A stretch of 29,216 nucleotides of DNA from a virus: the IMG/VR virus record IMGVR_UViG_3300032246_002341, positions 1 through 29,216 of that record, one strand, 5' to 3'. A program made the position numbers and the translations under genes. The stretch's first letter is position 1. Each line of letters starts with the position of its first letter. This document shows positions 950 through 27,570 of this stretch, in pieces. The notes under the pieces are model-generated. The model ran no database searches. It was not told where the DNA came from and saw only the letters and a list, made by a program, of their open reading frames with translations.

Positions 950-3900
950 ATGGCAAGAAAGATTCTACTTGAAACAAGCTATGCATTTAATCCAGCAACA
1001 AGGACTGTGGTTATTCCTAGAATTATTACAAGAGAACGTCTTGTTCTTATAACTAACGTAACGGCCAATAAGGTAATATACAATTTTTCAGATCCGTCCC
1101 TCTTAGCATCATCATATGCAACATACGGAGATTCATCAACATTTTTTCAAGTAACAGCCGCATCTGGCTCAGGAACTGCTGCAACATATACAACATCTGC
1201 AGCACATGGTTTTATAGTAGGACAAACAGTAACAGTTACTGGTGTTACACCATATGCATATAACATAGTTGGAACAATCGCTTCTGTTCCTACAACTACA
1301 ACATTTACTGTAACAACAAATGCGGCTGGAACCTATGTATCTGGTGGACTTGTAGCAATTAACGAAAATACAGTTGTAACATTAAACTATAATACAACAG
1401 CTATGGCAACTACAGATAAGTTGCAAATTACAATTGACGAATATGCAGAAAAGTTTGAACCATCACAGGAAATGACTGATCCAGTTGGTAAGCTTAGAAC
1501 ATCTCAACCACAAGCTCTTGTTGATACAGATTTTGAATATTCATCTCAGGTTTCTAAATGGGAAAACCTTGGATTAATGAATAACCGTCCATTTGCTTAT
1601 GCATTTGTGTTTAACTCACTTAATACTTTAGATATTCAAACTGCAGCGGCAGGAACAAGAGCAACTACTGTTTATACAAACGCTTCTATTATAACTACAA
1701 CATCTGCGGGAGCATTTGGAAATGGTACAACAGCTCAATATACAACATCTGCTACACATAACCTATCAGTGGGACAATTAGTTGTAGTTACAGGATTAAC
1801 TGCTACAGGTGGTTCATATAATACTACTGTTGCAACTCCCGTTTTATCAACACCTACACCAACATCATTTATTATTGCAAGCAATGGAACAGGTGCAGCA
1901 ACAGGTACAGGAAACGTTGTATATAATATTGCACCAGCTCCAGGATCTCCTATTGTTGTATCAGATACATTTTCTCCAGCATCAATTGGTAACTATATAG
2001 TTGAAACAAACCCAACAGCTTCTATTACTGCAATTTCTGCAGGAACTGGAACACAGGTTACATATAATACAACAACTCCTCCACCAGTTGGATCAGCAGT
2101 AGTTATTACAGGTGCTGGAACAGCAGGAGCTAACGGAACATTTATTGTTCAGTCAATAGTTGCAGCAACTTCATTTACTGTAAATAATACTACAACTGGT
2201 ATTACAACATCTACAGCATCTGCATCTATACCTTCTGCACTTACATATTCAGCAAAAGGCCCAACTCCAACAATTTGGGCATCAACATCTATTTTTGATA
2301 CATATAAAACACAAGTACAAGCAGGAACATATTTTACAAATGCTTCAATAACTGCTGGAACAATAACAGCTCCAACAATGGCATACAATACAAATACAGG
2401 TGCTGTAACTGTTACAACAACAGTTCCCCACGGTTTAGCACTTGGAAATGAAATTGCAGTTGTTGGAACAACAGGTTTATCTGGAACAATTAACGGTAAT
2501 TATCATGTTGCTACAATTGTTACACCAACACAGTTTATATATTATGCTACAGCAGCACAAACAGGTACTCTTTCAGTATCTCCAACCGCTACAACTTCAA
2601 CAGGTTTAACGGGATCAAACATTATTACAGTAGCATCAGCTACAGGATTATCATTAGGTATGACAGTGTTTGCAGCAACTGGTATTCCTAATGGTTCAAT
2701 AATTAAAGATATTCAAGGTACAGTAATTACATTAAACAATAATTTAACTGCAGCTTTATCTTCAACATCAACAACATTCTATGCATCAATATTTGCACGT
2801 AATCAAGCTCAGGTTACACACCGTGCTTTTGATGGTGGTGTTATGTTCTCAACAAATAGTGGTTCAAATAACGTAGCTCAAGTTCGTCAAACACGTCGTT
2901 ATTTCCGTTATCAATCAGGTAAGGGCATTCAAATATCGTCTGGAACAATTCTTAAGCCAACATTTGGAATTGATTCTTTAACATCTTCTGGTACAACTGT
3001 AACGGTAAAAACAAAAGAACGTCATGGATTACAGCCAGGATATCAAGTAACAATTTATGGTGCTAACGAAAATGGATACAACGGTACATTTACTGTTGCA
3101 AACGTAACATCATTAACAGACTTTACTTATGTAGCATCTATTACTCCACAAGCAGCAACAGCTTCAGGTCAATATTATGTAGCAGTAAATGCTTGGAACG
3201 GTGCGTTTAATCGTTTAGGAATGTTTGATCAGCAAAATGGTGTTTTTTTTGAATTTGATGGAATAACATTATATGCAGTTCGTCGTAACTCTATTTTTCA
3301 ATCAGCGGGACGTGTAAGCGTTACACAGGGTTCAAATACAGTAACACAAACAAGCACAGCATATCCAACATCATTTAATAAGCAATTGGTTCCAGGAGAT
3401 TTTATTATTCTTCGTGGACAATCATATAAAGTTATTGATATTGCTTCAGATACATCTTTAACAATCCAGCCATCATATCGTGGAAATACAGCTACAAACG
3501 TAATTGTTTCTAAGACTGTTGAAACAAGAATTCCACAATCTGCATGGAATATTGATAAGCTTGACGGAACAGGCCCATCAGGATACAACTTAGATCTTAC
3601 AAAGATGCAAATGTTTTATATTGATTATTCTTGGTATGGTGCAGGTGCTGTACGTTGGGGCTTCCGTGGTCCAAAGGGTAATATTATTTATGTACACAAA
3701 TTAGCAAATAATAATCAAAATGCTATGGCTTACATGCGCTCAGGAAACCTTCCAGGTCGTTATGAATCAGAAACTAAGCCAGCGGTAACTCAAATACAAG
3801 CAAGCGTTGGAACAGCTGATACAACAATTACAGTTGCAAATACAACGGGATTTTACGCAGGATCTGCAACATTGCCAGGAACTGCAGTGATTAGATCTTC

Positions 3901-5101
3901 AGCGGCATATGAATACTTTAATTACACTGGTATAACTGGTAATACATTTACTGGTGTTACTCGTGCACAATCAGGCGCATTGGCTGCAGGTGGTGTTGCA
4001 ATTACAATTGCAGCAGGTTCAAATATTGCAACAATTGCTTCAGCAGCAGGTCTTCAGGTTGGACAAAGAGTTGTACATCCAACATTCCCAGATGGAACAA
4101 AAATTGAATTAATTTCTGGAACAACTTTAACATTATCTGCAGCGGCAACAACTGCAAACCCTACAGTTTACTTCCCACCAATGGGTGCTACAACAGGAAC
4201 AGCATTTACATATTCTGCAACTACACCAGTAGTTGTTGAGCAAGCATTTCCAACATTTGGACCTACAATGTCACACTGGGGTACATCTGTTATTATGGAT
4301 GGTCGTTTTGATGATGATAAGTCACTTCTCTTTACTTATGGTCAAGTTACACCTACCGTCCTTGCACCAGCGGGTGGTACAACAGCAACAGGTTCTACAT
4401 CAGGATCTTCAACTTCTGTAACATTATCTGCAGCAAATACAAACGTAGTTGCTGGTATGTATGTATCTGGAACTGGTGTTCCTGCAAATACATATGTTGC
4501 ATCAGTACAATCAGGTACAGCAATTACATTAAATAATGCGGTATCGCTTTCATCCGCTGCTCTAACATTTGCGGGAGCTACAACAAAAGCATTATTCTCA
4601 ATTCGTATCTCACCTTCAGTAGATACTGGTATTGCAGATTTCTTTGGTCGTCGTGAATTAATTAATCGTATGCAGCTTGTGTTTAAAACACTTGATATTT
4701 CTCTACTTGGTACAACTTCAGGTAACGTGTTCGTACAGGCTATTTTGAATGGAGTTCCATTCAATCCAACAGCAAACACATATGCAACTTGGACAAACCC
4801 AGTAAGAAACGCTGTATCTTCACCAACATCCTCACTTGGTCAAATTGCTGACTTTGCTGGTGGTAACTATATTATTCAGGGTGGTGAAACAACAGGTGGA
4901 TTCTTTGTATCAACAACTGGTTCAAATGAAATTAACACACTTCGTGATTTAGGTAATGCCATTACAGGTAATGGAACCCTATATTCAAATAATAATATTT
5001 ATCCAGATGGTCCCGACGTTCTTACAATTGTTGTAACTAACGTAGGTACTACAGCTCAATCAGTACTTGGACGTGTTGCTTGGACAGAAGCCCAAGCTTA
5101 A
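950..5101 (+). CDS. Large multidomain virion structural protein (T4-like marine phage type) with E1_FCCH-like beta modules
   Basis: This 1383-residue protein starts one base after the previous stop, with TAGGAG about 9 bases upstream. Its core motifs resemble large structural proteins of marine cyanophages: GKLRTSQPQALVDTDFEYSS near residue 180, RRYFRYQSGKGIQISSGT near 650, FEFDGITLYAVRRNS near 770 and MFYIDYSWYGAGAVRWGF near 890. Interspersed are at least four beta modules with an 'HG(F/L)..G..V.V.G' signature near residues 86, 270 (HNL variant), 492 and 690. Further Thr/Ala/Ser-rich beta segments include 'GLSLGMTVFAATGIPNG' and a similar one near the C-terminus. The modules resemble the FCCH domain seen in many phage proteins. 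A baseplate or tail-surface role is likely; the exact position in the virion is unknown. Codons are AT-rich like its neighbours. Confidence 0.75.
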   Translation: MARKILLETSYAFNPATRTVVIPRIITRERLVLITNVTANKVIYNFSDPSLLASSYATYGDSSTFFQVTAASGSGTAATYTTSAAHGFIVGQTVTVTGVTPYAYNIVGTIASVPTTTTFTVTTNAAGTYVSGGLVAINENTVVTLNYNTTAMATTDKLQITIDEYAEKFEPSQEMTDPVGKLRTSQPQALVDTDFEYSSQVSKWENLGLMNNRPFAYAFVFNSLNTLDIQTAAAGTRATTVYTNASIITTTSAGAFGNGTTAQYTTSATHNLSVGQLVVVTGLTATGGSYNTTVATPVLSTPTPTSFIIASNGTGAATGTGNVVYNIAPAPGSPIVVSDTFSPASIGNYIVETNPTASITAISAGTGTQVTYNTTTPPPVGSAVVITGAGTAGANGTFIVQSIVAATSFTVNNTTTGITTSTASASIPSALTYSAKGPTPTIWASTSIFDTYKTQVQAGTYFTNASITAGTITAPTMAYNTNTGAVTVTTTVPHGLALGNEIAVVGTTGLSGTINGNYHVATIVTPTQFIYYATAAQTGTLSVSPTATTSTGLTGSNIITVASATGLSLGMTVFAATGIPNGSIIKDIQGTVITLNNNLTAALSSTSTTFYASIFARNQAQVTHRAFDGGVMFSTNSGSNNVAQVRQTRRYFRYQSGKGIQISSGTILKPTFGIDSLTSSGTTVTVKTKERHGLQPGYQVTIYGANENGYNGTFTVANVTSLTDFTYVASITPQAATASGQYYVAVNAWNGAFNRLGMFDQQNGVFFEFDGITLYAVRRNSIFQSAGRVSVTQGSNTVTQTSTAYPTSFNKQLVPGDFIILRGQSYKVIDIASDTSLTIQPSYRGNTATNVIVSKTVETRIPQSAWNIDKLDGTGPSGYNLDLTKMQMFYIDYSWYGAGAVRWGFRGPKGNIIYVHKLANNNQNAMAYMRSGNLPGRYESETKPAVTQIQASVGTADTTITVANTTGFYAGSATLPGTAVIRSSAAYEYFNYTGITGNTFTGVTRAQSGALAAGGVAITIAAGSNIATIASAAGLQVGQRVVHPTFPDGTKIELISGTTLTLSAAATTANPTVYFPPMGATTGTAFTYSATTPVVVEQAFPTFGPTMSHWGTSVIMDGRFDDDKSLLFTYGQVTPTVLAPAGGTTATGSTSGSSTSVTLSAANTNVVAGMYVSGTGVPANTYVASVQSGTAITLNNAVSLSSAALTFAGATTKALFSIRISPSVDTGIADFFGRRELINRMQLVFKTLDISLLGTTSGNVFVQAILNGVPFNPTANTYATWTNPVRNAVSSPTSSLGQIADFAGGNYIIQGGETTGGFFVSTTGSNEINTLRDLGNAITGNGTLYSNNNIYPDGPDVLTIVVTNVGTTAQSVLGRVAWTEAQA

Positions 5102-5123: not shown

Positions 5124-7298
5124 ATGGCTTTAGACAAATTAAAGTATACATATCAAGATCCTGCCAAGGTATCTGAATTAAATGTTGATGACGTATTAAA
5201 CGTAACTAATACTATAAATACAACTAATATAAATACAACTAACGTTAATTCTAAATCTCAAATTATATCTCCAGTTGCATCAAGCATTGGTTTAACTTTA
5301 AAAAGTGCAACACTACCAAATTCTGATTTAATGCAATTACAAGATAACGTAGGATCAATAAAATTTGGAATAAACTCTGCAGGAAATATATACTCTGGAA
5401 CTGGACCAACATTTGCAATTGGAAATACAAACTATATACTTTCTAGTGCTATAGCAACATCTTCAACTACTGCAACTTTTGTGTATGCTTTAGGAACTCA
5501 ACCTTTATTTGTTGGACAACAAGTTCAAATATCATCAGTAACACCTAATTATTTTAATGGAGTATGGACGGTAACATCAGTATCTGGTGGTCCAAATCAA
5601 TGGTTATTTACAGTATTAGGATCAGGATTTACTCCAGGCGGTGTAGGAACGGGATTTGGAATATTAAGGCCAAGTCCTCAATTAAGCATAACATCAACCA
5701 ATGCATTAAATACACCATTTGTAATTCAAGCACACCCTTTGCAAAATGCTAACCTTATTGAATTTTTAGGTACATCTGGATCAAGAGTAGGATATGTTTC
5801 TGCTTCTGGAAACTTATTTTTTTCTGGAAATATGAATGTGCAAGGAACTTCATTTCTTACTGTTATTGCTGATCAAACTGCAACAAGTGCACAGATAACT
5901 CCTGTTGGAAATTCAATAAGTACATATAATTCTAGCGGAGTTAGAATTCGTGCTCTTGGTTCAAATCAACAAGCATTAACAGTAAGATCAACAATAAGCA
6001 CAGCTACAATTTCAGCTGCAACTGCAAACGGAACAACTATTACTTATACAAATAACAATTCACAATTTTTTTATCCTGGAATGGGTGTAACAATCACAGG
6101 AGTTGTTTCTACTGGAAATCCAAGTGCTACAGCAGGATCAGGATTTAATTTAACAAATGCAACAGTTGCAAGTGCTAACTTAAGTACATTTACAGTAACA
6201 AATAGTTTAGTAGACACTTATACTTCTGGTGGACTTGCAACAGCAACAACTACTGCAGACATTCAACAATGGCAAGATAGTGGTGGCGGAACAATTGCAA
6301 AAGTAACCTATACTGGTGGAGCACAATTTACTGGAAATACAGTAATATCTGGTGGATTATCAGTATCTGGTAATTATGGTGGATCCACCACAATGGCTAT
6401 TTCTAATAATCAAAATATCATTGGACTTACAATATCAGGTATTAATGGTCAAACCGCAGATCTTCAACAATGGAGAGACTACTTAGGAACTAATTTAGTT
6501 GCAGTTAATTCTTCTGGAAGTATATATTCTCCTTCTACAGAACTTATTTTGCAACAAACAGGAGATACTTATGGCACAACAAGATTACGCCTTCAAAGCC
6601 GTACGGGATTAAGTGGTGCTTTATTTGAAAATGCAGGACTAGACCTAGTTGATTTTGGTTTTAAAACTTCTTCTAACGTTACAGGACTTATTCGATATGA
6701 AAATAGAGTTGGTTTTACCGTATCGGGTGTTTCAGAATTTCAAATAGGCACAGGTGGCACAATAGCTTCTACTCCTCTTGCAATTACAGGAACCAATGTT
6801 GCAAGCTCTACGGGAAGAGTAATTGTTAATTCAACAGGTGCTTCTATTATTCCGCTTACAGTAAAAGCAGCAACAGCTCAAAGTGCTAATTTAACACAAT
6901 GGCAAGATTCTACTGCAAATCCTATTTCTGCTATTTTGTATAATGGATCAATATCAATTTCAAGAACAGCCGCTTATTATTTTAACAACGGAACAGTTGG
7001 AAATGAAAGAGCAAACATATCTTCAAATTCAAATAATGAATTAAGTTTTCAAATTACAGGTGGTAGTGAAGTAGCACATTTTTACGCTGGAACAAGCCCA
7101 ACAAATGCAATTGTATTTAATAACGTAAGCGGATATGCAACAGCAAATGTTTTTGTAATTAAAGGTGCAGGTGGGCAAAGCGGAGATTATTTACAAATAC
7201 AAAATGGAAGTGGTACAGTTCTTTCTAAAATAGATAATGTGGGCAATTTTACTAAAGGCGACGGAGACCAATTGGTCCTAGCAAGCCAGGTTTTTTAA
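5124..7298 (+). CDS. Repeat-built tail fibre-like protein
   Basis: A strong SD (GGGGGAGG) precedes the ATG. The 724-residue product contains about six copies of a fibre unit of the pattern 'LxIx(A)xxxQxaxLxQWxDsxGxxlaxVxxxGxi', for example ADLQQWRDYLGTNLVAVNSS and ANLTQWQDSTANPISAILYN. Two E1_FCCH-like beta modules are inserted, near residues 110-175 and 290-375. The N-terminus has an Asn/Thr-rich stretch (TNTINTTNINTTNVNSKSQ) that could be a flexible attachment region. Such repeats usually form elongated trimeric beta shafts in phage fibres; that structure is inferred. The same repeat occurs in the truncated first gene and in the gene at 17370, so these three proteins are related by module sharing. 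No enzymatic motif is seen. Confidence 0.7.
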   Translation: MALDKLKYTYQDPAKVSELNVDDVLNVTNTINTTNINTTNVNSKSQIISPVASSIGLTLKSATLPNSDLMQLQDNVGSIKFGINSAGNIYSGTGPTFAIGNTNYILSSAIATSSTTATFVYALGTQPLFVGQQVQISSVTPNYFNGVWTVTSVSGGPNQWLFTVLGSGFTPGGVGTGFGILRPSPQLSITSTNALNTPFVIQAHPLQNANLIEFLGTSGSRVGYVSASGNLFFSGNMNVQGTSFLTVIADQTATSAQITPVGNSISTYNSSGVRIRALGSNQQALTVRSTISTATISAATANGTTITYTNNNSQFFYPGMGVTITGVVSTGNPSATAGSGFNLTNATVASANLSTFTVTNSLVDTYTSGGLATATTTADIQQWQDSGGGTIAKVTYTGGAQFTGNTVISGGLSVSGNYGGSTTMAISNNQNIIGLTISGINGQTADLQQWRDYLGTNLVAVNSSGSIYSPSTELILQQTGDTYGTTRLRLQSRTGLSGALFENAGLDLVDFGFKTSSNVTGLIRYENRVGFTVSGVSEFQIGTGGTIASTPLAITGTNVASSTGRVIVNSTGASIIPLTVKAATAQSANLTQWQDSTANPISAILYNGSISISRTAAYYFNNGTVGNERANISSNSNNELSFQITGGSEVAHFYAGTSPTNAIVFNNVSGYATANVFVIKGAGGQSGDYLQIQNGSGTVLSKIDNVGNFTKGDGDQLVLASQVF

Positions 7299-7337: not shown

Positions 7338-7700
7338 ATGGCATCATATAGCAAAGTACAACTTTCAGGGGCTTCTCAAGGACTCCCCGTTTTAGTAGCA
7401 GCAACAGCTTCTACAGGTACAACAATTCATACAACTGGTACCTCATCTACAGCAATTGACGAAGTTTGGTTATATGCTTATAACTCATCTTCTGCAGCTG
7501 TTCTTTTAACAATTCAGTATGGTGGAACAACTTCTCCACTTAATGATATTAAGATTACAGTACCCTCACAATCAGGTTTGACTCTTATAGTCCCTGGCTT
7601 AATTTTGACGGGAAATGGATCAGCAGGAGCTTCAGTATATGCATATGCAGGTACAACTAACGTAGTTACAATTTCAGGTTACGTAAACCGTATAGCATAA
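7338..7700 (+). CDS. Small beta-rich virion-associated protein
   Basis: The 120-residue product has a strong SD (AAGGAG) seven bases before the ATG. It is rich in Thr, Ser, Ala and Val, without Cys or any catalytic signature, and its alternating pattern suggests a beta sandwich. Its overall plan resembles the 113-residue protein at 19325: an N-terminal 'TTIHTTGTSSTAIDEVWLYA' part, a central 'LLTIQYGG' strand and a C-terminal 'GASVYAYAGT' strand. Both sit just before or among receptor-binding genes, so a small adaptor or capping protein is plausible. No family was recognised with certainty. It is the first gene after a likely promoter and precedes the glycine-rich array. Confidence 0.65.
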   Translation: MASYSKVQLSGASQGLPVLVAATASTGTTIHTTGTSSTAIDEVWLYAYNSSSAAVLLTIQYGGTTSPLNDIKITVPSQSGLTLIVPGLILTGNGSAGASVYAYAGTTNVVTISGYVNRIA

Positions 7701-7710
7701 GGGGTAAACT

Positions 7711-8613
7711 ATGAAACAGTTTTTACCCAGAGGTGAAGTAAGTTCTCAAGTTAGTACATGGCATCCATCGTCTAATTCTTCAACTCCCGCATCAAATACA
7801 CATTTTATTTTACCTTATGGTTTAACTCTTCAACAAACAATCAACGCTGGAACCACATCAGTCACAATCCCTGCTGGTATTACTTGGGTATATGCAATTG
7901 CGGTTGGTGGCGGAGGTAGCGGTGGTTATGCATCGGGAGGTGCAGGTGGTATCGCTTGGGGTTGGACTCTTTCTAATTCAACTTGCGTAGTTGGTGCTGG
8001 TGGTACTGGTGCAAACTCAGGTAACTACACTCGTTACGGAAATGTAATTGCAGGTGGCGGCGGTGGTGGCTCAGGTGGAACTGGATTTTTAGGTGGTGCT
8101 GGGGGTAGCGCTGTTGCTGGTGGAACTAATTATTGGGGAATCCCCGCTGGTGCTGGTGGCACTACTAGTATAAAAGGCGGTAATGGTTCAGGCGGCGGCG
8201 GTGGTGGTAATGCTGCAAACGGCGGAACAGCAGGCAATGGTGGAGATGGAATTTCAGGCGGCGGCGGTGGTAGCGCAACAGTAGGTGGTGGTGCTGCAAC
8301 TAATACTGCTGGCAATGGTGGTAATGGTTTAGCAGGTGGGGGTGGTGGTAGAGCCGCTTCTGGTACAACAACAAATGTTGGCGGCAATGGTGGCAACGGA
8401 ATAAACATTTTGACGGGTGCTGTAACAACAGGTGGTGTTGGTACAACCAGCGCAACGCAAGGTACTGGCGGCGGTGGTGGTGGCGTTGCAGGTAATGGTG
8501 CTGCAGCAGTAACGACAACTCCTGGCGTTGGTGGCCTAGGCGGCGGCGGCGGCGGCGGAAGTGCTGGTGGTGGCGCAAATGGCGGCGCAGGAATACTTTA
8601 CCTTTTTTATTAG
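7711..8613 (+). CDS. Glycine-rich adhesin-like tail protein, copy 1 (subtype A)
   Basis: This 300-residue protein has two parts. Residues 1-65 are ordinary sequence with SSQVSTWHPSSNSSTP, PYGLTLQQTI and VTIPAGITWVYAIAVGG. From residue 66 on the protein is extremely glycine-rich (runs of GGGG separated by A, S, T, N), ending in the hydrophobic aromatic tail GILYLFY. Subtype A markers are 'TRYGN.IAGGG' and 'NYWGIP' near residue 143. Glycine-rich domains of this kind occur in phage receptor-binding proteins; in the phage S16 adhesin gp38 they fold as packed polyglycine type II helices. A host-binding role at a fibre tip is inferred from that. The gene follows the previous stop by 10 bases with an SD of AAGGGG. 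It contains a (GGC)6 run near its end. Confidence 0.7.
   Translation: MKQFLPRGEVSSQVSTWHPSSNSSTPASNTHFILPYGLTLQQTINAGTTSVTIPAGITWVYAIAVGGGGSGGYASGGAGGIAWGWTLSNSTCVVGAGGTGANSGNYTRYGNVIAGGGGGGSGGTGFLGGAGGSAVAGGTNYWGIPAGAGGTTSIKGGNGSGGGGGGNAANGGTAGNGGDGISGGGGGSATVGGGAATNTAGNGGNGLAGGGGGRAASGTTTNVGGNGGNGINILTGAVTTGGVGTTSATQGTGGGGGGVAGNGAAAVTTTPGVGGLGGGGGGGSAGGGANGGAGILYLFY
8539..8556 (+). repeat. (GGC)6 triplet microsatellite in glycine-rich gene
   Basis: Six consecutive GGC codons encode part of the last glycine run of the first adhesin-like gene. Slippage here would change glycine number without breaking the frame. Confidence 0.9.
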
Positions 8614-8622
8614 GAGAAAAAA

Positions 8623-9483
8623 ATGAGCGTATCTATATATAACAATTCATCTTTTACTGATACACCGTATGGACTCAAGCTACAACAAACTATAACATCT
8701 AGCGGATCAGTAGTCATACCCGCTGGAATTAATCGTGTGTACGCAGTTGTTATTGGCGGCGGCGGTGCTGGTGGCTCTAATGCAACTGGTGGAGCAGGCG
8801 GCGGCGGTGCTGGTGGATATTCTGCTGGTTGGACTTATATTTCAAATACTGTGACTGTTGGTGCTGGTGGCGTTGGTACTTCAACTACTGGCGGCGCTGG
8901 TGTTGGCGGCGGTTCAAGTATTTATGGAATGGTATTTGCTGGTGGTGGTTCAGGAGCAGTTAGCGCTATTATTGGTGGTGCTGCTGGGGGAGCAACAAAC
9001 GCATCAGGAACATCATCAACCATTTCTTATACAGGCGCACCTGCTGCTGGTCCAAATACAATTGGTTATGCTGGTGGTGGTGGTTCAAACTTTGTTGGAA
9101 ACCCTGGCGTATCAAGTGGCGGCACTATTGGCGCATCAGGAACTACTGGTGGACAAAGTGGCGCTCCTGGAACTCGCGGAATTATTTGTGGCGGTGGTGG
9201 TTCAGCAGGAACAACAGGCGTTGGTACAGGCGCTAACGGCGGTACAGGCGATTTTTATGCTGGCGGTATTGGTTCATCAGGAACAGGAACATCTTTTGGT
9301 GGCGGTGGTGGTGGTGCAGGTTATACAAGCGCAGGATTTAATGCTGGTTATCCCGCAGGAACTTCAACTGGTGCGTTAAATGATGGCGGCAAAGGCGGCA
9401 CAGGTGGTGGCGGTGGTGGTGGTGCTTCTACTGGCGGTACTGCTGGATCAGGCGGGGATGGAGTTGTTTTCTTATATTATTAA
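8623..9483 (+). CDS. Glycine-rich adhesin-like tail protein, copy 2 (subtype B)
   Basis: The 286-residue product starts after SD TAGGAG, which overlaps the stop codon of the previous gene. Subtype B has a shorter N-terminus (MSVSIYNNSSFTDTPYGLKL), then SSGSVVIPAGINRVYAVVIGG, and from residue 45 a glycine-rich body. Subtype markers are 'GYSAGWTYISNTVTVG', 'SIYGMVFAGGG' and 'ISYTGAP', shared with the fifth copy, and the tail is GVVFLYY. It probably forms a glycine-rich receptor-binding domain like the other copies, with different surface loops. The strong N-terminal match to the other copies (PYGLKLQQTITSSGSV) shows descent by duplication. The single Cys in a 'GIICGGGG' loop is notable. Function is inferred. 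Confidence 0.7.
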   Translation: MSVSIYNNSSFTDTPYGLKLQQTITSSGSVVIPAGINRVYAVVIGGGGAGGSNATGGAGGGGAGGYSAGWTYISNTVTVGAGGVGTSTTGGAGVGGGSSIYGMVFAGGGSGAVSAIIGGAAGGATNASGTSSTISYTGAPAAGPNTIGYAGGGGSNFVGNPGVSSGGTIGASGTTGGQSGAPGTRGIICGGGGSAGTTGVGTGANGGTGDFYAGGIGSSGTGTSFGGGGGGAGYTSAGFNAGYPAGTSTGALNDGGKGGTGGGGGGGASTGGTAGSGGDGVVFLYY

Positions 9484-9498
9484 GAAAACAAAATATAA

Positions 9499-10449
9499 AT
9501 GGCTAACTCATTTGAACGTGGATTATCAGGATCTCAAGTATCACAATGGGCTCAAAATGATACAAATACCCCACTAATAAATACATCTTTTATAACCCCT
9601 TATGGTTTAAAGCTTCAACAAGTTATTACATCAAGCGGATCGGTTACTATTCCCGAAAATATTACATTTGTTTATGCAATATGTGTAGGCGGCGGTGGCG
9701 GAGGTGGTTGGTATGGCTCAGGTGGCGGTGGCGCAGGAGGAATTGCTTGGGGTTGGACTATTGCAACTTCTAGTTGCATTATAGGTTCTGGTTCAATAGC
9801 TGCAGTAAACACAGTTTCTGTTCCAGCAGTTGGTGGCTATACACGTTATGGAAATATAATAGCAGGCGGCGGCGGAGCTGGTGCATACAATGGTTTGGGT
9901 AATGCAATAAATGGATATCTTGGTGGTGGCGGCGGCGGCGGCGGTACAGGGCAAGGTGGAGGATTTGGTTCTAATGGTAGTACAAATTATTGGGGAATAC
10001 CAGGAGGAAGTTTAGGAAATTCATCAATATTAAAAGGTTTTCCTGGTGCAGGTGCTGGAGGTGCATATGCAGTTTATCCATCAACTGGTGCTAGTGGCGG
10101 TGATGGTATTTCAGGAGGAGGCGCTTCTCAAACTGGTACTGCAAATACTGTTGCTTTTAATGGTGGCAATGGCTTAGCAGGTGGCGGTGCAGCTTTAGGT
10201 ACAGCAACTGTAGCAGGTGGAATTGGAGGAAAAGGAATTAATATAGCTACAGGAGCTATTACAACAGGTGGCATAGGTTCGCTTTTTGGTGTATCTGGAG
10301 CAGGTGGCGGAGGAGGAGGAACTGCTGGTAACGGAGTAAATGCATCAGGATATCTTGGCGGCGCAGGAGGTTTAGGCGGAGGCGGTGGCGGATCAGGAAA
10401 TACAGTAGGAGGTGCAGGCGGAAATGGAATTCTTTATCTTTATTATTAG
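9499..10449 (+). CDS. Glycine-rich adhesin-like tail protein, copy 3 (subtype A)
   Basis: The 316-residue product is the longest of the five copies. The N-terminus SGSQVSQWAQNDTNTP, FITPYGLKLQQVITSSGSV and FVYAICVGGGG place it with subtype A, as do 'YTRYGNIIAGGG', 'TNYWGIPGG', 'GGDGISGGGA' and 'GKGINIATGAITTGG'. It ends in GNGILYLYY. A seven-glycine run is encoded by GGC codons (near 9928). Unlike its neighbours the ATG has no convincing SD (only AAGAAAACAAAATATAA upstream), so expression may depend on coupling to copy 2, whose stop is 15 bases before. The likely role is host receptor binding, inferred from architecture and context. Confidence 0.7.
   Translation: MANSFERGLSGSQVSQWAQNDTNTPLINTSFITPYGLKLQQVITSSGSVTIPENITFVYAICVGGGGGGGWYGSGGGGAGGIAWGWTIATSSCIIGSGSIAAVNTVSVPAVGGYTRYGNIIAGGGGAGAYNGLGNAINGYLGGGGGGGGTGQGGGFGSNGSTNYWGIPGGSLGNSSILKGFPGAGAGGAYAVYPSTGASGGDGISGGGASQTGTANTVAFNGGNGLAGGGAALGTATVAGGIGGKGINIATGAITTGGIGSLFGVSGAGGGGGGTAGNGVNASGYLGGAGGLGGGGGGSGNTVGGAGGNGILYLYY
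9928..9942 (+). repeat. (GGC)5 triplet microsatellite in glycine-rich gene
   Basis: Five consecutive GGC codons, flanked by GGT glycine codons, encode a glycine run in the third adhesin-like copy. It is an in-frame repeat able to vary in length. Confidence 0.85.
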
Positions 10450-10458
10450 GAGTTATAA

Positions 10459-11358
10459 ATGACAAATGTATTTGGAAAAAATAAATCAAGCACACAAGTG
10501 TCTAATTGGCATGTTGCTAATAGTAGTAATACTCCTGTATCATTTACATCTTTTGTAAATCCATATGGATTAAAATTACGTCAAACAATAACATCTAGCG
10601 GATCAGTTACAATTCCCGCCGATATTACTTTTGTATATGCAATATGTGTTGGTGCAGGAGGAACTGGTTTTTATTCAGCAGGTAGTTATGGAGGAGGCGC
10701 AGCAGGCGGCATATCTTGGGGTTGGACTTTAGCAACAAATTCTTGCGTAATAGGTGCTGCAACAGTTGGCGCTGATGGCGGCTATACTCGTTATGGAAAT
10801 ATAATGGCAGGTGGTGGAAGAGCTAACACTGGACTTCTTGGTTCTGGCGGCGGCGGTGGTTTTTATGCTGGATCAACAAATTATTGGGGTATTCCTGGTG
10901 GTTCTGTAGGTACAGCAACATCTATAAATGGTGGAAATGGATCAGGTGGTGGTGGTGGATTTAATGGTACTACATTAGGCGGAAATGGAGGTAATGGAAT
11001 TTCAGGAGGAGGTGCTGGTAGTGCTACTGCATCTGGTTCTGCAAATAATATAGGGGGAAATGGCGGAAATGGTTTAGTTGGCGGAGGCGGCGGCGGAGCT
11101 GCAAATACAACAGGTGTTCGCACAGGCGGAAATGGCGGAAATGGTTTTAATATTGCAACTGGCGCAATAACAACTGGTGGTACGGGCTCAACTGGAACAA
11201 ATACAAATGGCGGCGGCGGTGGTGGCGCAGGAACTGCAGGTAATGGTGGAAATGCTTCAGGTTTAAATGGCGGTAATGGTGGACTTGGTGGTGGCGCAGG
11301 CGGCGGAGGAGTTACAGGTGGTGTTGCTGGTAATGGAATACTTTACCTATTTTACTGA
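10459..11358 (+). CDS. Glycine-rich adhesin-like tail protein, copy 4 (subtype A)
   Basis: The 299-residue product starts after SD TAGGAG overlapping the previous stop. Its N-terminus (STQVSNWHVANSSNTP, NPYGLKLRQTITSSGSV, FVYAICVG) and body markers 'YTRYGNIMAGGG', 'TNYWGIPGG', 'GNGISGGGAGS' and 'GFNIATGAITTGG' make it subtype A. The tail is GNGILYLFY, the same as in copy 1 apart from one residue. A 20-base tract at 10588-10607, within the TITSSGSV codons, is identical to one in copy 2, suggesting recombination across subtypes or strong conservation. Receptor binding is inferred. The stop is TGA, which also contributes the TG of a -10-like motif before copy 5. Confidence 0.7.
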   Translation: MTNVFGKNKSSTQVSNWHVANSSNTPVSFTSFVNPYGLKLRQTITSSGSVTIPADITFVYAICVGAGGTGFYSAGSYGGGAAGGISWGWTLATNSCVIGAATVGADGGYTRYGNIMAGGGRANTGLLGSGGGGGFYAGSTNYWGIPGGSVGTATSINGGNGSGGGGGFNGTTLGGNGGNGISGGGAGSATASGSANNIGGNGGNGLVGGGGGGAANTTGVRTGGNGGNGFNIATGAITTGGTGSTGTNTNGGGGGGAGTAGNGGNASGLNGGNGGLGGGAGGGGVTGGVAGNGILYLFY

Positions 11359-11364
11359 TATAAT
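11356..11364 (+). promoter_or_regulatory. Extended -10 promoter (TGATATAAT)
   Basis: TG-A-TATAAT matches the extended -10 consensus and overlaps the TGA stop of the fourth glycine-rich gene. The ATG of the fifth copy is 21 bases further on, with SD GATGGAG between them. No clear -35 box is seen. It would allow copy 5 and the small gene after it to be expressed separately. Confidence 0.5.
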
Positions 11365-11385
11365 AAGATACAAGATGGAGATAAT

Positions 11386-12144
11386 ATGAGCGTAGATATA
11401 TATTCAAATTCAAAATTTAGTGATACACCTTATGGGCTAAAATTGCAACAAACTTTTACTACATCTGGTCCTGTTACAATACCTGCAGGAATTAATAGAG
11501 TTTATGCAATTTGCATTGCAGGTGGAGGTGGAGGAAACGCTTACTCAACCAACTCTGGTAATGCAGGCGGAGGCGGCGGATACTCTGCGGGATGGACTTA
11601 TGTTTCAAATACAGTAACAGTAGGTTCAGGCGGCGCAGGAGGCGTTATGTCTGGTGGCGTTAACGCAGCAGGTTCAACAGGTGGTAATTCAATTTATGGA
11701 ATGGTATTTGCACTCGGCGGCGGCGGCGGAAATACTGTAACTTCTGGCGGAGCAGGGGGCGGAGGAGGTATTTCTTATACAGGTGCTCCAAGTGGTACAT
11801 ATAACGCAGGTGGCGGATCAAATACTCCTGGAGGATCAGGTGTTTGCGGAGGCGGTGGATCTATTAATGGCGGTGGCTCAGGTTTAACTGGCGGAGGCGG
11901 TGGTCACGGCGGCGGAGTTGGAACAAATGGAAGTGCAGGGGGTTCTGGTAATGGCGGCGCAGGTGGTACTACAGCACCTGGTGCAGGATCAGGCGGTGGA
12001 GGATTTATAGGCGCTGGAAGAAATGCTTCAACAAGCGTTGGCGGTAATGGTGGCGATGGTGGCGGCGGCGGAGGATCCGCTTATGGTGTGTCTACCGCAA
12101 CAGGAGGAAGCGGCGGTAATGGCGTTGTTTATTTATACTACTAA
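11386..12144 (+). CDS. Glycine-rich adhesin-like tail protein, copy 5 (subtype B)
   Basis: The 252-residue product is the shortest copy. It shares the subtype B start MSVDIYSNSKFSDTPYGLKL, then VTIPAGINRVYAICIAGGG, 'GYSAGWTYVSNTVTVG', 'SIYGMVFALGGG' and 'ISYTGAPSG', ending in GNGVVYLYY. From residue 45 glycine dominates. It differs from copy 2 mainly by missing segments in the glycine-rich body, so length change by repeat loss is likely. A single Cys occurs in 'GVCGGGGS', at a place comparable to the Cys of copy 2. It is separated from copy 4 by 27 bases carrying its own promoter-like motif. The expected function is host recognition, by inference. Confidence 0.7.
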   Translation: MSVDIYSNSKFSDTPYGLKLQQTFTTSGPVTIPAGINRVYAICIAGGGGGNAYSTNSGNAGGGGGYSAGWTYVSNTVTVGSGGAGGVMSGGVNAAGSTGGNSIYGMVFALGGGGGNTVTSGGAGGGGGISYTGAPSGTYNAGGGSNTPGGSGVCGGGGSINGGGSGLTGGGGGHGGGVGTNGSAGGSGNGGAGGTTAPGAGSGGGGFIGAGRNASTSVGGNGGDGGGGGGSAYGVSTATGGSGGNGVVYLYY

Positions 12145-12153
12145 GGAGATAAA

Positions 12154-12444
12154 ATGGGAACATATGCAGTAATGAGCGGTAACACAGTAAGTAATGTAAT
12201 AGTAACTGATGATGTAGAAGATGCATCAAATGTTTTACATGCTACTTTAATTGAATATACATCTGAGAATCCAGCAGGAATTGGATGGACATATGATCAG
12301 GAAACAGGTGCATTTACAGCACCAGAACCTGTTGAAATTGATCCAGTTCAAGCAGCAAATGATAAATTAATTGCGGCAGGATTAACTCAAGAAGAAATTG
12401 CAGCACTTGCTGCACAGGTGTCTTTACAGAACCCTACTGAGTAA
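12154..12444 (+). CDS. Small protein, possible tail-fibre assembly factor
   Basis: The 96-residue product has SD AAGGAG before the ATG. The first half (MGTYAVMSGNTVSNVIVTDD ... NPAGIGWTYDQETGAFTAPE) matches the 'YAVI..G.V.NVIV.D' and 'IGWTYD' pattern that I know from small proteins encoded beside phage tail fibres. The second half is a short acidic helical tail (DPVQAANDKLIAAGLTQEEI). Its position straight after the glycine-rich array fits an assembly chaperone or a small tail component. The family link is motif memory only. The -35 box of the next promoter lies inside its last codons. Confidence 0.6.
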   Translation: MGTYAVMSGNTVSNVIVTDDVEDASNVLHATLIEYTSENPAGIGWTYDQETGAFTAPEPVEIDPVQAANDKLIAAGLTQEEIAALAAQVSLQNPTE

Positions 12445-12458: not shown

Positions 12459-13469
12459 ATGAATCTAGTTCAAAGATCAGTTTCTAATGGCGGTAAATTA
12501 GCGCCATTAGTTATTTCTAAGGGTCTTACATCTGGGACGGGATTAATGAATCCCTCCATTTTTGTAGATAATAATGGAGAAATATTAGTCAATCTTAGAC
12601 ATGTAAACTATACGCTATATCATTCTGAGAATACCCAAAAGTTCCCATCAAGATGGGGACCTTTGTCATATCTACACCCAGAAAAAGATATGCATTTGCG
12701 TACAACTAATTACATTGTTAGATTAGATAAAGATCTTGTAATGACTGATCATACTGTTATTGATACTAGTAAATTAGATGTAGAACCTTTATGGGAGTTT
12801 GTTGGTCTTGAAGATGCCCGACTTGTTCAATGGGACGGGGATTATTATTGTATTGGAGTAAGAAGAGATACAACAACAACTGGCGTAGGTAGAATGGAAT
12901 TATGTAAGATAGAGTTAGATAAAACTAATTGGTCTGCAAAAGAAATATCACGTATTAGAATTCCTGCTCCAGGAGCAGACGATTCATATTGTGAAAAAAA
13001 TTGGTATCCGATTTTAGATAAGCCTTATCATTTTGTTAAATGGACTTCTCCAGCAGAGATTGTAAGAACATATCCAGAACTTCCCGCCAGATGTGAGCAA
13101 GTATCACATACTGAAAATATTAAAGTACCTGTTGATCAAAGAGGCGGTAGCCAACTAATTTGCTGGAACAACCTATACCTATCAGTAACACATGAAGTAA
13201 ACTTATTCAATAATTACCTAAGTCAAAAAGATGGCATATATCGCCATAGACTATGTGTATGGGATGATGATTTAAATCTTGTTGGTATATCTCCAGAATC
13301 ATTCTCATTTTTAGATGCACGTATTGAATTTGCTGCAGGAGCAGCAAGATATAATGATGACCTGCTTATATCTTTTGGTTTTCAAGATAATGCAGCCTTT
13401 GTTCTTAAGGTGCCAAATAATGTAGTTGAAGAAATGATAGCGGAGGCTTTATTAAATGAATTCAATTGA
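12459..13469 (+). CDS. GH43/GH130-like five-bladed beta-propeller protein, putative glycan-modifying
   Basis: The 336-residue product contains, in order: GLMNPSIFVDNNGEILVNLR (residues 28-47), VGLEDARLV (115-123), EKNWYPILDKPYHFVKW (179-195), RGGSQ (228-232), THEV (244-247), YRHRL (261-265), EFAAGA (near 291) and ISFGFQDNAA (near 305). The N-P...NLR and G-EDAR pattern is that of GH43/GH130-type five-bladed propellers, a group including mannoside phosphorylases. The later motifs match a subgroup I have seen beside glycosyltransferases in bacteria and phages. Whether it is catalytic or only glycan-binding cannot be told. It overlaps the next gene by 14 bases and is read from a leaderless-type promoter, so it heads a compact operon. 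Glycan processing is the best inference; the exact substrate is unknown. Confidence 0.65.
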   Translation: MNLVQRSVSNGGKLAPLVISKGLTSGTGLMNPSIFVDNNGEILVNLRHVNYTLYHSENTQKFPSRWGPLSYLHPEKDMHLRTTNYIVRLDKDLVMTDHTVIDTSKLDVEPLWEFVGLEDARLVQWDGDYYCIGVRRDTTTTGVGRMELCKIELDKTNWSAKEISRIRIPAPGADDSYCEKNWYPILDKPYHFVKWTSPAEIVRTYPELPARCEQVSHTENIKVPVDQRGGSQLICWNNLYLSVTHEVNLFNNYLSQKDGIYRHRLCVWDDDLNLVGISPESFSFLDARIEFAAGAARYNDDLLISFGFQDNAAFVLKVPNNVVEEMIAEALLNEFN

Positions 13470-14028
13470 AGAGTTAATTGAAACTGTATCTCATGATATG
13501 CTCAATCCAGAACATAATTTTAATATTGCCATAAAATATGAGCAGTTAGGTCAAACTGCTTCTGCTGTTTCATTTTATTTAAGAGCAGCAGAATATGGAC
13601 ACAAATCTCATCCAGAAATAGTATATGCTTCATTATTAAGAATGTCTCATTGTTTTGAAGATCAATCTGGTCGGGAACATACAGTAAGCAATGTAATATT
13701 GCAAGCAATACAATACTTGCCAAATAGACCAGAGGCATATTTTTTAATGTCTAGATTTTATGAAAGATCTCAAAAATGGCAAGAATGCTATACATTTGCT
13801 GAAATAGGTTTAATGTTTGATCAAAATATTAATAGCTTGCCAGTAGATGTTGATTTTCCTGGCATATATGGCTTATTATTTGAAAAAGCTGTAGCTGGAT
13901 GGTGGATCGGAAGAGAAGACGAATCATTAATGATATTTACTCGTTTGCTTGAGCAAGATGTTAGAGAAGATTATAAAAATACAATAAAATATAATCTGGA
14001 AAAAATAGGTGGAAATGTTACTGTTTGA
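13456..14028 (+). CDS. TPR-like helical repeat protein of the glycan module
   Basis: The 190-residue product begins inside the end of the propeller gene with SD GCGGAGG. It is predicted all-helical from its sequence pattern, with TPR-type units such as 'NIAIKYEQLGQTASAVSFYLRAAEYG' (split here by eye, near residues 24-50) and 'PEAYFLMSRFYERSQKWQEC' (near 93-112). The latter plus the C-terminal AVAGWWIGREDESLMIF resembles the TPR portion of bacterial and phage glycosyltransferase-TPR proteins. No glycosyltransferase domain is attached, so the protein may act as a scaffold that links the propeller and methyltransferase to a glycan enzyme elsewhere. It overlaps the next gene by up to 20 bases. 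The function is inferred from context. Confidence 0.6.
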   Translation: MNSIEELIETVSHDMLNPEHNFNIAIKYEQLGQTASAVSFYLRAAEYGHKSHPEIVYASLLRMSHCFEDQSGREHTVSNVILQAIQYLPNRPEAYFLMSRFYERSQKWQECYTFAEIGLMFDQNINSLPVDVDFPGIYGLLFEKAVAGWWIGREDESLMIFTRLLEQDVREDYKNTIKYNLEKIGGNVTV

Positions 14029-14689
14029 TATTGGTGCTAATAGAGGAGATGCTGTTATAGCAGGATTAAATAAAGGTTTTGATAAAATTATTGCTCTAGA
14101 GCCCGCACCTAAAATGTTTTTTATGCTTTATAATAATTTTAAAAATGATGAAAGAGTTATACCTCTTAAATATGCTGTTGCAGACTCAAATAATCAAAAG
14201 ATTGAGTTTTATGAATGTGTAGAAGATGGACTTTCTACAATAGAAAAATCATGGCTTACTGGAGAAGGTGCTTTATATAAAGGTAAAGAATTTAAAATTA
14301 TATCTGCAAAAACAATAACCATAGATTTACTTATAGATAAGTATGGTATACCAGATTTAGTTAAAATTGATGTAGAAGGTGCAGAGTCTCAAGTATTTGC
14401 GGGAATGACAAAAAAACCTAAGAAACTTGCTTTTGAATGGAGTTTATTTACTTTAGATCAACATATAGAGCAATTAAAAAAATTACAAGATGTTAATGGA
14501 TATACAGAGTTTGCCTTACAATATATAACTTATCATCTAGATGAACCTTCAGAATACCGACCATTAACAGATTTAAATACTTTACCGCAATGGATTGAAG
14601 ATACAAAACATGCTTGGAAGAACGGTGGCTGGAGAGAAGCTGGTGCTATGAGAGAAGAACCTGATGTAGGAATGATTTGGGTAAAATAA
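14009..14689 (+). CDS. FkbM-type SAM-dependent methyltransferase
   Basis: The 226-residue product has a Rossmann methyltransferase motif I LLFDIGANRGD (residues 4-14), an acidic ribose-binding loop ALEPAP (29-34), a mid-region AVADS (56-60) and LVKIDVEGAE (117-126), the hallmark of the FkbM family. FkbM enzymes usually O-methylate sugars or polyketides, so methylation of a glycan is the likely role, either on the virion or on the host surface. The start may be GTG at 14009 (GGA eight bases upstream) or ATG at 14015; both lie inside the end of the preceding gene, so translation is coupled. The C-terminal third (YHLDEPSEYRPLT, WREAGAMREE) is not recognised. It is the last gene of the three-gene set. 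Confidence 0.8.
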   Translation: MEMLLFDIGANRGDAVIAGLNKGFDKIIALEPAPKMFFMLYNNFKNDERVIPLKYAVADSNNQKIEFYECVEDGLSTIEKSWLTGEGALYKGKEFKIISAKTITIDLLIDKYGIPDLVKIDVEGAESQVFAGMTKKPKKLAFEWSLFTLDQHIEQLKKLQDVNGYTEFALQYITYHLDEPSEYRPLTDLNTLPQWIEDTKHAWKNGGWREAGAMREEPDVGMIWVK

Positions 14690-16096: not shown

Positions 16097-17370
16097 TGAC
16101 AGCGGTCATAGGATTTGCTGGACAAGGTAAAAATTACGTAAGAGACAATTTAGTTTTAAATCTTGATGCTTCTGTAAAACAAAGTTATGATGGTGCAGAA
16201 AATTTAATACCAGTCAGCGCACCTGATTATTTTGGTAATACAACTTATTATCCACCAATTAATGGATGGAGTCCAAACTTTAATTATTCAAATGCTCCAG
16301 ATGGCACACAAACTAGCGTTCAATGGGCAGCAGGTGGAGCATATGTAGGTCCTTATTCAAATTACACAGTTGGTGTACCAACAACTGGAAAGACTTATGT
16401 TATGAGCATTTATGGAAATGCTCCCCGTGTAGGTAATAATGGATCAATTTGGGTTGACCCAGGAAATAATAGATTGATGACTATTGATTGTAATGGTGGA
16501 ACAGTTACTTCTGTTGGTACCAGCATAATTAACTCTGGATCTATTAACTGTGGAAATGGTTGGTATAGATTTTGGAGCACATTTACTGGAAGTACTGGAG
16601 CAATATATCCAACTTATTATACAGCTCTAGGCGGCGGAACAAATTGTTATTTATGGGGACCTCAACTTGAAAGAGGAGTTTTTCCAGGACCGTATACCCC
16701 TACTATTGGGTCTGTAATAAATAGAAGCAATACTTGGAATGATCTTTCTGGAAATTCAAATAATGCTACTTTAAATATGCCATATTTTAATGAACAAGGA
16801 TATTTTGAATGGGATGGAAATTCAACTACCGATGTGGGCACAGTTCCAAATGCTACTTCAATAAATTTTTCAGAAGCTGCTGCATATTCAATTGATTTTA
16901 CAGCATATCCATATTCCAATCAACCAAATGGTTCAGGAGGAGCAAATTCTGGTGAAGCAGTAATATTTGAAAAATGGAATTATAGCGGAACAGCAGGATA
17001 CCCATACGCTATTAGATTAACTGGTTTAGGCGGAACACTTTCTTGGTTTGTAGCTGCTTATAATGGAACAACAGGCCTTAGTACTGGATCAACTGCAACA
17101 TTAAATGCATGGTCACATTTAACTGCCGTTTATGATTGGCCAAATAGCATTTTAAGATTTTATGTAAATGGCACACAAACAGCCACAACAGCACTTTCAG
17201 GAACAGGATTTAGTTCACCAACAAGTCCAATATATTTGGGGCAAAGAATTGGAACTGCAATAGATAGATTTGCTGGTAAAATAGGACATATAAGACAATA
17301 TAATAAAGCGTTGTCAGCTGCCGAAGTTTTACAAAATTTTAATGCAGTAAGAGGAAGGTTTAACATCTAA
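16096..17370 (+). CDS. LamG/concanavalin A-like lectin fold tail protein
   Basis: The chosen start is the ATG at 16096, which overlaps the previous stop as TAATG; an upstream in-frame ATG at 16048 would overlap the previous gene by 49 bases and adds an unlikely MCCLKRFCYIW. The 424-residue product begins MTAVIGFAGQGKNYVRDNLV. A first beta-sandwich, about residues 30-215, ends with YLWGPQLERGVFPGPYTPT, a pattern typical of phage carbohydrate-binding modules. A second domain, about residues 225-420, has FEWDGNS, AAAYSIDFTAYPY, LNAWSHLTAVYD and LRFYVNGTQ, then IGHIRQYNKALSAAEVLQNF, the usual close of a LamG-type lectin fold. Glycan binding is inferred. Its stop overlaps the next ATG. Confidence 0.75.
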   Translation: MTAVIGFAGQGKNYVRDNLVLNLDASVKQSYDGAENLIPVSAPDYFGNTTYYPPINGWSPNFNYSNAPDGTQTSVQWAAGGAYVGPYSNYTVGVPTTGKTYVMSIYGNAPRVGNNGSIWVDPGNNRLMTIDCNGGTVTSVGTSIINSGSINCGNGWYRFWSTFTGSTGAIYPTYYTALGGGTNCYLWGPQLERGVFPGPYTPTIGSVINRSNTWNDLSGNSNNATLNMPYFNEQGYFEWDGNSTTDVGTVPNATSINFSEAAAYSIDFTAYPYSNQPNGSGGANSGEAVIFEKWNYSGTAGYPYAIRLTGLGGTLSWFVAAYNGTTGLSTGSTATLNAWSHLTAVYDWPNSILRFYVNGTQTATTALSGTGFSSPTSPIYLGQRIGTAIDRFAGKIGHIRQYNKALSAAEVLQNFNAVRGRFNI

Positions 17371-19301
17371 TGCCAATTAGTTTTCCATCTAGCCCCGTGC
17401 TTAATCAACAATATACATACTCAGGTCACACCTGGCAATATAATGGTTCTGTTTGGCAATCAGTTGGTACCGCACAAGGTGTACAAGGTATACAAGGTAT
17501 TGCTAATCAAGGTATTCAAGGACCAGCAGGTTCTGTTCAAGGAACACAAGGAATTCAAGGTTTGCAAGGTTTTGGCTATGCACAGCTTCAAGGAACAACG
17601 GGCGCTCAAGGAACAACGGGAGCTCAAGGAACGCAGGGAATTCAAGGATTAACTCCTGCTAACGTAGCATTCCTAAACGTAGATAATACATTTACTGGAA
17701 AACTTTATACTTCAGGCGTTTATGATACTAATGATATAAGCGCACAAGCAGCATCAAATAATATTTCATTTTTACCAAATGATGTTTGGTTTGATAGACT
17801 AAGATTTCAAAATGGAGTATTTGAATCTTCTACAAATGGATCAACATGGACAAATACAACATTTAATTCATCTCCTTTTGATGGAAGAAATTATACATCT
17901 TTGACTATTCCCGCATTAACATATTATAGATGGACATTTTCAAATCTTAATTTTAACTACATACTTAATAAATGGTTAAGGGTTACTTGTACTTATAATG
18001 GTTCAAATCCTGCATATAATTTAACTTTTGAATCAAGTGCAAATGGTTCAACTTGGACAAATAAGGGTTCATGGACAAATCAGGCTTCATCTGTAACAAG
18101 AAGAATATTTAATACAACAGATATTGGTGGTGACGGATACATAAGAGTTACAATGCAAAATACTCATGCTACACAGGGCGTAAATCTTGCAAATATAGAA
18201 TTACTTTCATATCGTGCAGGAGATCAAGGTGGGGATGCAACAGGAATTGAAGGAAACCTTCCATTTGATTGGGATGGATATAGAGCAATTACAATGCAAT
18301 CAAAACATAGCGGAAGTATTCCATTAACTATTAGAAATAGACCTGTATTTACTACAGCAGTTACTTCTGCTACAGGAAATGGAACTACAGTAACTTATAA
18401 TTTTTCTGGATCTAGCTTTACCCCTCCAATGGCGGGAGAAACAGTAGGTATTAGTGGTGCCAACCCAACAACTTTTAATATTTCAAGTGGAACAATATTA
18501 TCAGCAACAGCTACATCTATTACAGTCGCAAATACTACATCAGATACTTATGTAGGAAGTGCAACTTTAAAGGTGGCAGGATTAAACAATTTACTACAAT
18601 GGTATAACAGCGACGGTTATATTTTAGGATATATTAACTCAAGTGGACAACTTAATATAGGTGCAAATTCATCTTCAGGAATGAATATTACTGGAACAGG
18701 ATATTTTATAGCATCTAGCAGTGGACTTCCAGCAATGAGAATACAACAAGCATCAGGTCAAACAGGAGATTTATTTGAATTTAGAAATTCAGCATATTCA
18801 ACAGTATTAGGATCAATGGCAGCAGATGCAACTTTAAAGTTTCCCGCCTTAACATCTCAGGCAGCAAGCAAAGCTTTATTAACAACAAATGGTGACACGG
18901 GTGGATTTTTAATTACTACTGTTGCAGCAGCAAATAAAGGTTTAGTTATTAAAGCATCTGCTTCACAAACTGCTAGTATGCAAGAATGGCAAGATTCAAC
19001 GGGTTCAATAGCAGCATCTATAAATGCTTATGGTTCTTTTCAGACTAGTGGAACATTATCTATAGGAAATTATTTAAGTGGTACACAAGCTTCTGTGACA
19101 CCTGGCGCATCCACAATTGGATTAATTATTAAAGCTGCCGCTTCTCAAACTGCCAATTTACAAGAATGGCAAAATTCATCAGGAACAGTTCTAGCTAAAA
19201 TTACAGCAGCGGGAGCAATAGATGTAAAATCAATTACTGTAAATGGAGCAGCAATATCAATATCAGCATTACCAGATATGTTCATGTTAATGGGCGCATA
19301 A
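17370..19301 (+). CDS. Collagen-containing repeat tail fibre protein
   Basis: The 643-residue product starts with MPISFPSSPVLNQQYTYSGH and TWQYNGSVWQSVG, a short N-terminal module common in phage fibres. Collagen-like triplets cover about residues 37-93 (GVQGIQG, GTTGAQG). A jelly-roll-like region follows, about 105-275, with duplicated 'ESS(T/A)NGSTWTN' strands. One E1_FCCH-like beta module (TAVTSATGNGTTVTYNFSGS) sits near 328-400. Four shaft repeats follow, such as TANLQEWQNSSGTVLAKITA, like those in the 724-residue protein upstream. It ends ALPDMFMLMGA. The SD is AGGAAGG. This is a composite fibre that has borrowed parts from several neighbours; a receptor-binding or shaft role is inferred. 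Confidence 0.7.
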   Translation: MPISFPSSPVLNQQYTYSGHTWQYNGSVWQSVGTAQGVQGIQGIANQGIQGPAGSVQGTQGIQGLQGFGYAQLQGTTGAQGTTGAQGTQGIQGLTPANVAFLNVDNTFTGKLYTSGVYDTNDISAQAASNNISFLPNDVWFDRLRFQNGVFESSTNGSTWTNTTFNSSPFDGRNYTSLTIPALTYYRWTFSNLNFNYILNKWLRVTCTYNGSNPAYNLTFESSANGSTWTNKGSWTNQASSVTRRIFNTTDIGGDGYIRVTMQNTHATQGVNLANIELLSYRAGDQGGDATGIEGNLPFDWDGYRAITMQSKHSGSIPLTIRNRPVFTTAVTSATGNGTTVTYNFSGSSFTPPMAGETVGISGANPTTFNISSGTILSATATSITVANTTSDTYVGSATLKVAGLNNLLQWYNSDGYILGYINSSGQLNIGANSSSGMNITGTGYFIASSSGLPAMRIQQASGQTGDLFEFRNSAYSTVLGSMAADATLKFPALTSQAASKALLTTNGDTGGFLITTVAAANKGLVIKASASQTASMQEWQDSTGSIAASINAYGSFQTSGTLSIGNYLSGTQASVTPGASTIGLIIKAAASQTANLQEWQNSSGTVLAKITAAGAIDVKSITVNGAAISISALPDMFMLMGA

Positions 19302-26115: not shown

Positions 26116-26149
26116 TAAGCACTGTAAATTATGAGTTAATTATAAACAC

Positions 26150-27546: not shown

Positions 27547-27570
27547 AAAAATAAGGTGGTGAAATAAAAA

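Follow-up and report, generated by a model that had tools for sequence, protein, structure and literature searches.

Whether five adjacent glycine-rich genes in a viral genome act as alternative host-binding tips, as co-displayed parts of one assembly or as mere duplicates of each other is the question raised by this locus. We searched the window, by which we mean the whole 29,216-base record, with a profile of the family and identified exactly five copies, all on the (+) strand and without internal stops. The copies, their putative docking tails and the neighbouring genes referred to below are:

950..5101, + strand: virion protein, 1383 aa (PHROG 5838, E=2.8e-262)
5124..7298, + strand: fibre-like protein, repeat-rich, read as a fibre by repeat composition alone
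7338..7700, + strand: g4, 120 aa (PHROG 30535), proposed adaptor or platform
7711..8613, + strand: copy 1, type A, 300 aa
7711..7812, + strand: putative docking tail at the N-terminus of copy 1, 34 aa, begins MKQFLPRGEVSSQVSTW
8623..9483, + strand: copy 2, type B, 286 aa
8623-8664, + strand: B-type tail of copy 2, first 14 aa
9499..10449, + strand: copy 3, type A, 316 aa
9499-9597, + strand: A-type tail of copy 3, begins MANSFERGLSGSQVSQW
10459..11358, + strand: copy 4, type A, 299 aa
10459-10560, + strand: A-type tail of copy 4, begins MTNVFGKNKSSTQVSNW
11386..12144, + strand: copy 5, type B, 252 aa
11386-11427, + strand: B-type tail of copy 5
12154..12444, + strand: g10, 96 aa (PHROG 14370), at the 3′ edge of the cassette

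Composition of the array and its surroundings

The initial annotation had described five adjacent Gly-rich paralogues produced by duplication, and both points hold. The ORFs are intact, with head, Gly-rich body (34 % Gly in copy 4, 38 % in copy 5) and aromatic C-terminus all present, and the other copies are 49-61 % identical to copy 1. Profiles of types A and B align over their full length (hhalign, E=5e-39) and the non-Gly columns Y36, L38, Q42, P54, W85, Y109, Y141, P145 and Y300 are invariant across the copies, indicating that these are true homologs rather than an artefact of composition. The same annotation had spoken of five in a row; this is correct for the number of genes but not for their equivalence, as they fall into two types and the upstream partner g4 had been overlooked. 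Type A (copies 1, 3 and 4) has a tail of 33-34 aa, the motifs WGWT and TNYWGIP and the C-terminus ILYL[FY]Y, while type B (copies 2 and 5) has a tail of 14 aa, SAGWT, SYTGAP and the C-terminus VV[FY]LYY, giving the order A-B-A-A-B. With a spacing of ~9 nt and Shine-Dalgarno-like sequences preceding most starts, the array genes are likely co-expressed. No inverted repeats were found within the array, leaving inversion-type phase variation without support. Predicted promoter-like sites (30 vs a shuffled expectation of 25.8, sd 5.4) were not above expectation and terminator-like sites (10 vs 5.6, sd 2.4) were somewhat above it, both counts being uninformative.

The protein at 950-5101 matches virion structural proteins of the cyanophages S-PM2 and S-H9-1 (tblastn, 44-47 %), and the genome is a mosaic of this cyanophage-related gene and a Streptomyces-phage-like protease and capsid at 24538-28698. 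The capsid and protease are 57 % and 40 % identical to those of Streptomyces phages, a resemblance that makes an actinobacterial host likely; the setting appears to be freshwater, as read from the apparent sources of neighbouring contigs. A fibre-like repeat, LTVKAA.AQSANLTQWQDS, is common to the proteins at 1-948, 5124-7298 and 17370-19301. Directly after the array, window 12459-14689 holds a gene annotated in relatives as a beta-mannosyltransferase, a second ORF and a methyltransferase, possibly for modification of virion glycans; a similar set also lies among the tail-fibre genes of Synechococcus phage DSL-LC02. The same virion-gene region encodes two alike repeat proteins (19670-20740 and 21072-22133) with units like YPWSNGFGTKYADPATLPTG, possibly beta-propellers.

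Array order, putative docking tails and the upstream gene g4

Across 71 distinct complete arrays, comprising that of the window and those of viral contigs retrieved by querying with A, B and their neighbours, the first gene was of type A and the last of type B in every case (71/71), a count to be read with caution as the contigs are mutually related and most were fetched with these proteins as bait. The layouts were AB (42), AAB (17), AABB (6), ABB (3), ABAAB (2) and ABAB (1), with 2 to 5 genes at the equivalent place in relatives and intergenic gaps mostly of 8, 9 or 12 nt. As a scan with the B profile was overrun by poly-Gly patterns, the B N-terminus was used in its place. A survey anchored on g4, partly overlapping the 71 arrays, gave AB 12 times, AAB 5 times and ABAAB once with no true exception; two of its arrays appeared to be A-only (L316 and L367), an appearance we discarded since a contig end cuts both. 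Single, more distant Gly-rich genes on L225 (3203-4048), L231 (12649-13494) and L266 were counted outside the arrays, one of the first two being in reverse orientation at its locus. Decay of the array, which had been raised as a possibility, was almost absent among relatives, the arrays being largely intact. The sole decayed copy noted is a B copy on L130 (9998-11322) broken into two short ORFs, possibly by a sequencing error. No relatives were confirmed in prokaryote genomes, no Gly-rich ORF was found in the stretch 1-90 kb read of Actinomycetia phage DSL-LC01, and tblastn against INPHARED with a whole Gly-rich copy and with the A head alone gave no match in any cultured phage at E up to 5, a search weakened by the low-complexity filter.

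Of the 66 arrays for which an upstream ORF was called, 63 have a g4-like gene directly 5′. Comparison of the first and second A copies in 24 AA pairs showed the tails to be slot-specific (mean same-minus-cross 0.189, 0/2000 permutations as high) while the heads (p=0.09) and bodies (p=0.29) of the same pairs were not, and the pattern was repeated in both tail lineages separately (tails p=0.0004 and 0.0016; bodies p=0.21 and 0.78). The A tails also follow g4. In 35 AB arrays similarity of g4 correlated with that of the A tail (rho 0.81), a correlation explained in part by shared lineage as there are two tail lineages, vs rho 0.11 for the A body, where the narrow spread of body similarities (sd 0.05-0.07 for type A) means that the missing correlation could partly be saturation. 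In 14 AAB arrays the tails of slots 1 and 2 tracked g4 with rho 0.75 and 0.80 and each other with rho 0.94, compared to 0.38 for the A body with g4. The second A tail lies ~1 kb from g4, past a body that tracks g4 less, a pattern not explained by simple linkage, though common lineage may account for part of it.

Using g4 as bait we surveyed the first gene 3′ of it. The docking-tail motif was present in 45 of 66 such genes and in 12 of 404 other ORFs, all 12 being A-type copies or occupants of the same slot; since the motif was composed after viewing these tails, it is the positional contrast and not the count that serves as evidence. The cargo following g4 included A-type Gly-rich proteins, other Gly-rich proteins (PF21722 in those tested), ConA-like Laminin_G_3 proteins (clear in L348 and L387, under the curated cut-off in L351) and a fibre with an S74 chaperone (L358). 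In L351 the tail MSSALHRMVSSSQVSDWF is fused to the probable ConA-like domain; the N-termini of the clear Laminin_G_3 and S74 proteins differ from the docking tails. In L331 a canonical tail operon begins with the tape measure and Dit genes, continues with tail proteins and a tail fibre and then has g4 followed by the adhesin. No tape measure or Dit gene is recognisable in the window, and the tail location is thus drawn from related contigs such as L331. Of the 38 arrays for which a downstream ORF was called, 17 have a g10-like gene directly 3′, and the L331 gene at the equivalent place matches PHROGs 7759 and 14370, as does g10, which is a weak candidate for an assembly helper.

Predicted fold and its known counterparts

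One A and one B copy were modelled as monomers with AlphaFold2 from alignments of their relatives (69 for type A, 62 for type B). Copy 4 (type A; pLDDT 89.0, pTM 0.84) and copy 5 (type B; pLDDT 86.8, pTM 0.85) both gave ordered, confident models, in keeping with the adhesin-like Gly-rich fold proposed from the sequence. The models contain few strands and no helices of at least four residues, and nearly all of residues 1-22 of copy 4 have a pLDDT below 50. A-type relatives show conserved GG.GG.G motifs interleaved with variable segments; confident, non-helical and mostly non-strand, with Gly motifs and variable segments, the bodies may be called packed extended strands of polyglycine II (PGII) type by likeness. 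In Foldseek searches of the PDB, copy 5 matched chain Qa of the Bxb1 tail tip best (E=7.5e-6, TM 0.50/0.54) and then the Pam3 fibre (E=2.3e-4), followed by the glycine-rich domains of ALK/LTK, which were not significant. Copy 4 again returned Bxb1 and Pam3 but weakly (E=1.6e-3 to 1e-2, TM about 0.3), and in BFVD many phage proteins described as glycine-rich domain-containing. Sequence searches of the PDB with A, B and g4 profiles gave no match.

The Gly-rich brush domain of 9D93 is that of gp33, in the tail wing (PMC13243192), and from this paper and the chain length we take chain Q to be Bxb1 gp33. It is the best solved-structure match for type B, with the same fold, and a weaker one for type A (E=9.3e-3). 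Common features are a short N-terminal part, a VP.G...GGGGG head, a Gly-rich body and a C-terminal hydrophobic strand, and gp33, from an actinobacterial phage, is encoded among the minor tail genes. It lacks an adjoining A/B array in the stretch read, and sequence-profile homology was not detected (hhalign probability 0.3 %, E=0.18 over 35 columns). Pam3 gp24 (7YPX/7YFW) combines a beta head with a layered Gly-rich domain in which the GRMs are conserved and the tips vary (PMC9608196), and matched type A at E=1.6e-3 and type B at the value given above. It is however a single gene with a chaperone, and its N-terminus forms a long alpha-helical trimer domain, whereas the tails in the arrays are of about 14-34 aa, were not confidently folded when modelled as monomers and show no such domain.

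The initial annotation had also compared the array to the gp38 of S16. Likeness exists in that S16/T2-type gp38 has a PGII sandwich whose Gly-rich motifs are constant and whose loops are hypervariable (PMC12892980), but gp38 caps gp37 whereas the array comprises 2-5 copies of two types downstream of g4. Solved gp38 chains are absent from both the Foldseek and the sequence matches in the PDB, where Bxb1 gp33 and Pam3 gp24 are nearest in structure, and membership of the gp38 family is not supported. Homology at the family level was found with PF21722 (Gly_rich_2): at E<=0.01 it matched 55/62 relatives of type B and 19/69 of type A, the best hit having E=9e-13. Within the window copy 2 (20.0 bits, E=7.4e-4) and copy 5 (21.6 bits) fall below the curated cut-off of 24.3 bits and copies 1, 3 and 4 did not match. 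Modular receptor-binding proteins of Klebsiella phages similarly keep a structural N-terminal module fixed and exchange the specificity module (PMC8262889). They carry depolymerases, whereas the array has a short peptide, a small gene of its own upstream and Gly-rich subunits in pairs. By analogy the tips may work like those of Bxb1 gp33 and Pam3 gp24. Gly-rich tips are already known as single proteins or domains; the new part is the logic of the array.

Replacement of the array and its probable role

Identity to L088 is 69-71 % in the array and 87-94 % in g4, g10 and g11, and dS is 0.94-1.31 in the array vs 0.19-0.49 in these neighbours, which points to replacement by recombination (array dN/dS 0.19-0.27). 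L117, whose array is AB only, shares 97 % identity in the 950-5101 protein and 65 % in the array. Overall, near relatives are 65-71 % identical in the array vs 87-97 % in flanking genes, with dN/dS of 0.19-0.30 and no stops in the compared pairs, and judged by dN/dS the array is under purifying selection. Copy 3 clusters with its slot counterpart in L088 (support 99). The tip set turns over much more rapidly than the surrounding genes, and these phages probably change hosts in this way. An additional Gly-rich array 5′ of the first was observed in L088 (2-2557), L117 (1-2313), L113 (3537-7031) and L082 (4904-8266), preceded in the latter two by a collagen-like fibre gene and not by g4. In L088 and L117 the extra array lies just 5′ of the homologue of the first gene of the window, and a second array may therefore lie just to the left of the window.

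We think it likely that the five genes form a tail-tip receptor-binding cassette in which a conserved adaptor and slot-specific docking tails carry exchangeable PGII-type bodies, the A/B sets being co-displayed. Each gene would encode a compact Gly-rich domain of packed extended strands whose variable loops contact the host surface, and a short N-terminal peptide would dock each protein at a fixed place in the virion, most likely via or beside the ~120-aa g4 protein. Types A and B would be two kinds of subunit, both required, in which case the five proteins would be co-displayed as A/B sets and not switched. Recombination and the exchange of cassettes would alter the bodies, with docking tails and g4 staying matched, so that host specificity could change without rebuilding of the tail. 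We infer the virion location, the docking partner, co-display and receptor binding. Heteromeric assembly or co-display had been offered earlier as one of several options and can be retained as a serious one given the obligatory A...B order, the gaps of 8-12 nt and the slot-specific tails. A more specific version, which we put forward tentatively and with some doubt, is that a mixed receptor-binding tip needs both A and B as its subunits and that g4 serves as a common platform reading slot-specific docking peptides. Freshwater phages would then plug in different adhesins (Gly-rich, lectin or S74-type fibre) and retain their tail and adaptor, a plug-in system of host recognition with an order code.

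The strong divergence of the bodies between phages and the variable number of copies (2 to 5) would also suit alternative tips, one or few being mounted per virion to give a single phage several host options. Against this, no complete array was purely A or purely B; the tails, moreover, are specific to their slots rather than rivals for one place, the array is without inverted repeats, and its ~9 nt spacing and Shine-Dalgarno-like starts make co-expression likely. We regard this arrangement as unlikely. Decoration of the head or fibre shaft, giving general adhesion to glycans or particles instead of specific receptor binding at the tail tip, is quite unlikely in our estimate: it is suggested by the 'head and packaging' label of the PHROG matched by the 950-5101 neighbour and by the portal, protease and capsid genes downstream, but in L331 the g4-adhesin slot comes straight after the genes for tape measure, Dit, tail and fibre, and the proteins nearest in structure belong to tail tips and tail fibres. 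Neutral tandem duplication without any division of function is highly improbable, for although duplication is visible and copy number changes frequently, dN/dS is 0.19-0.30, the compared pairs lack stops, the tails are position-specific and the A-to-B order is fixed.

An ordered, paired array with tails kept by position and tips exchanged would explain how host recognition diversifies in uncultured freshwater phages. Ordinary similarity searches miss such proteins because glycine-rich sequence is masked, and g4 together with the tail motif would offer a genomic handle for finding receptor-binding proteins.
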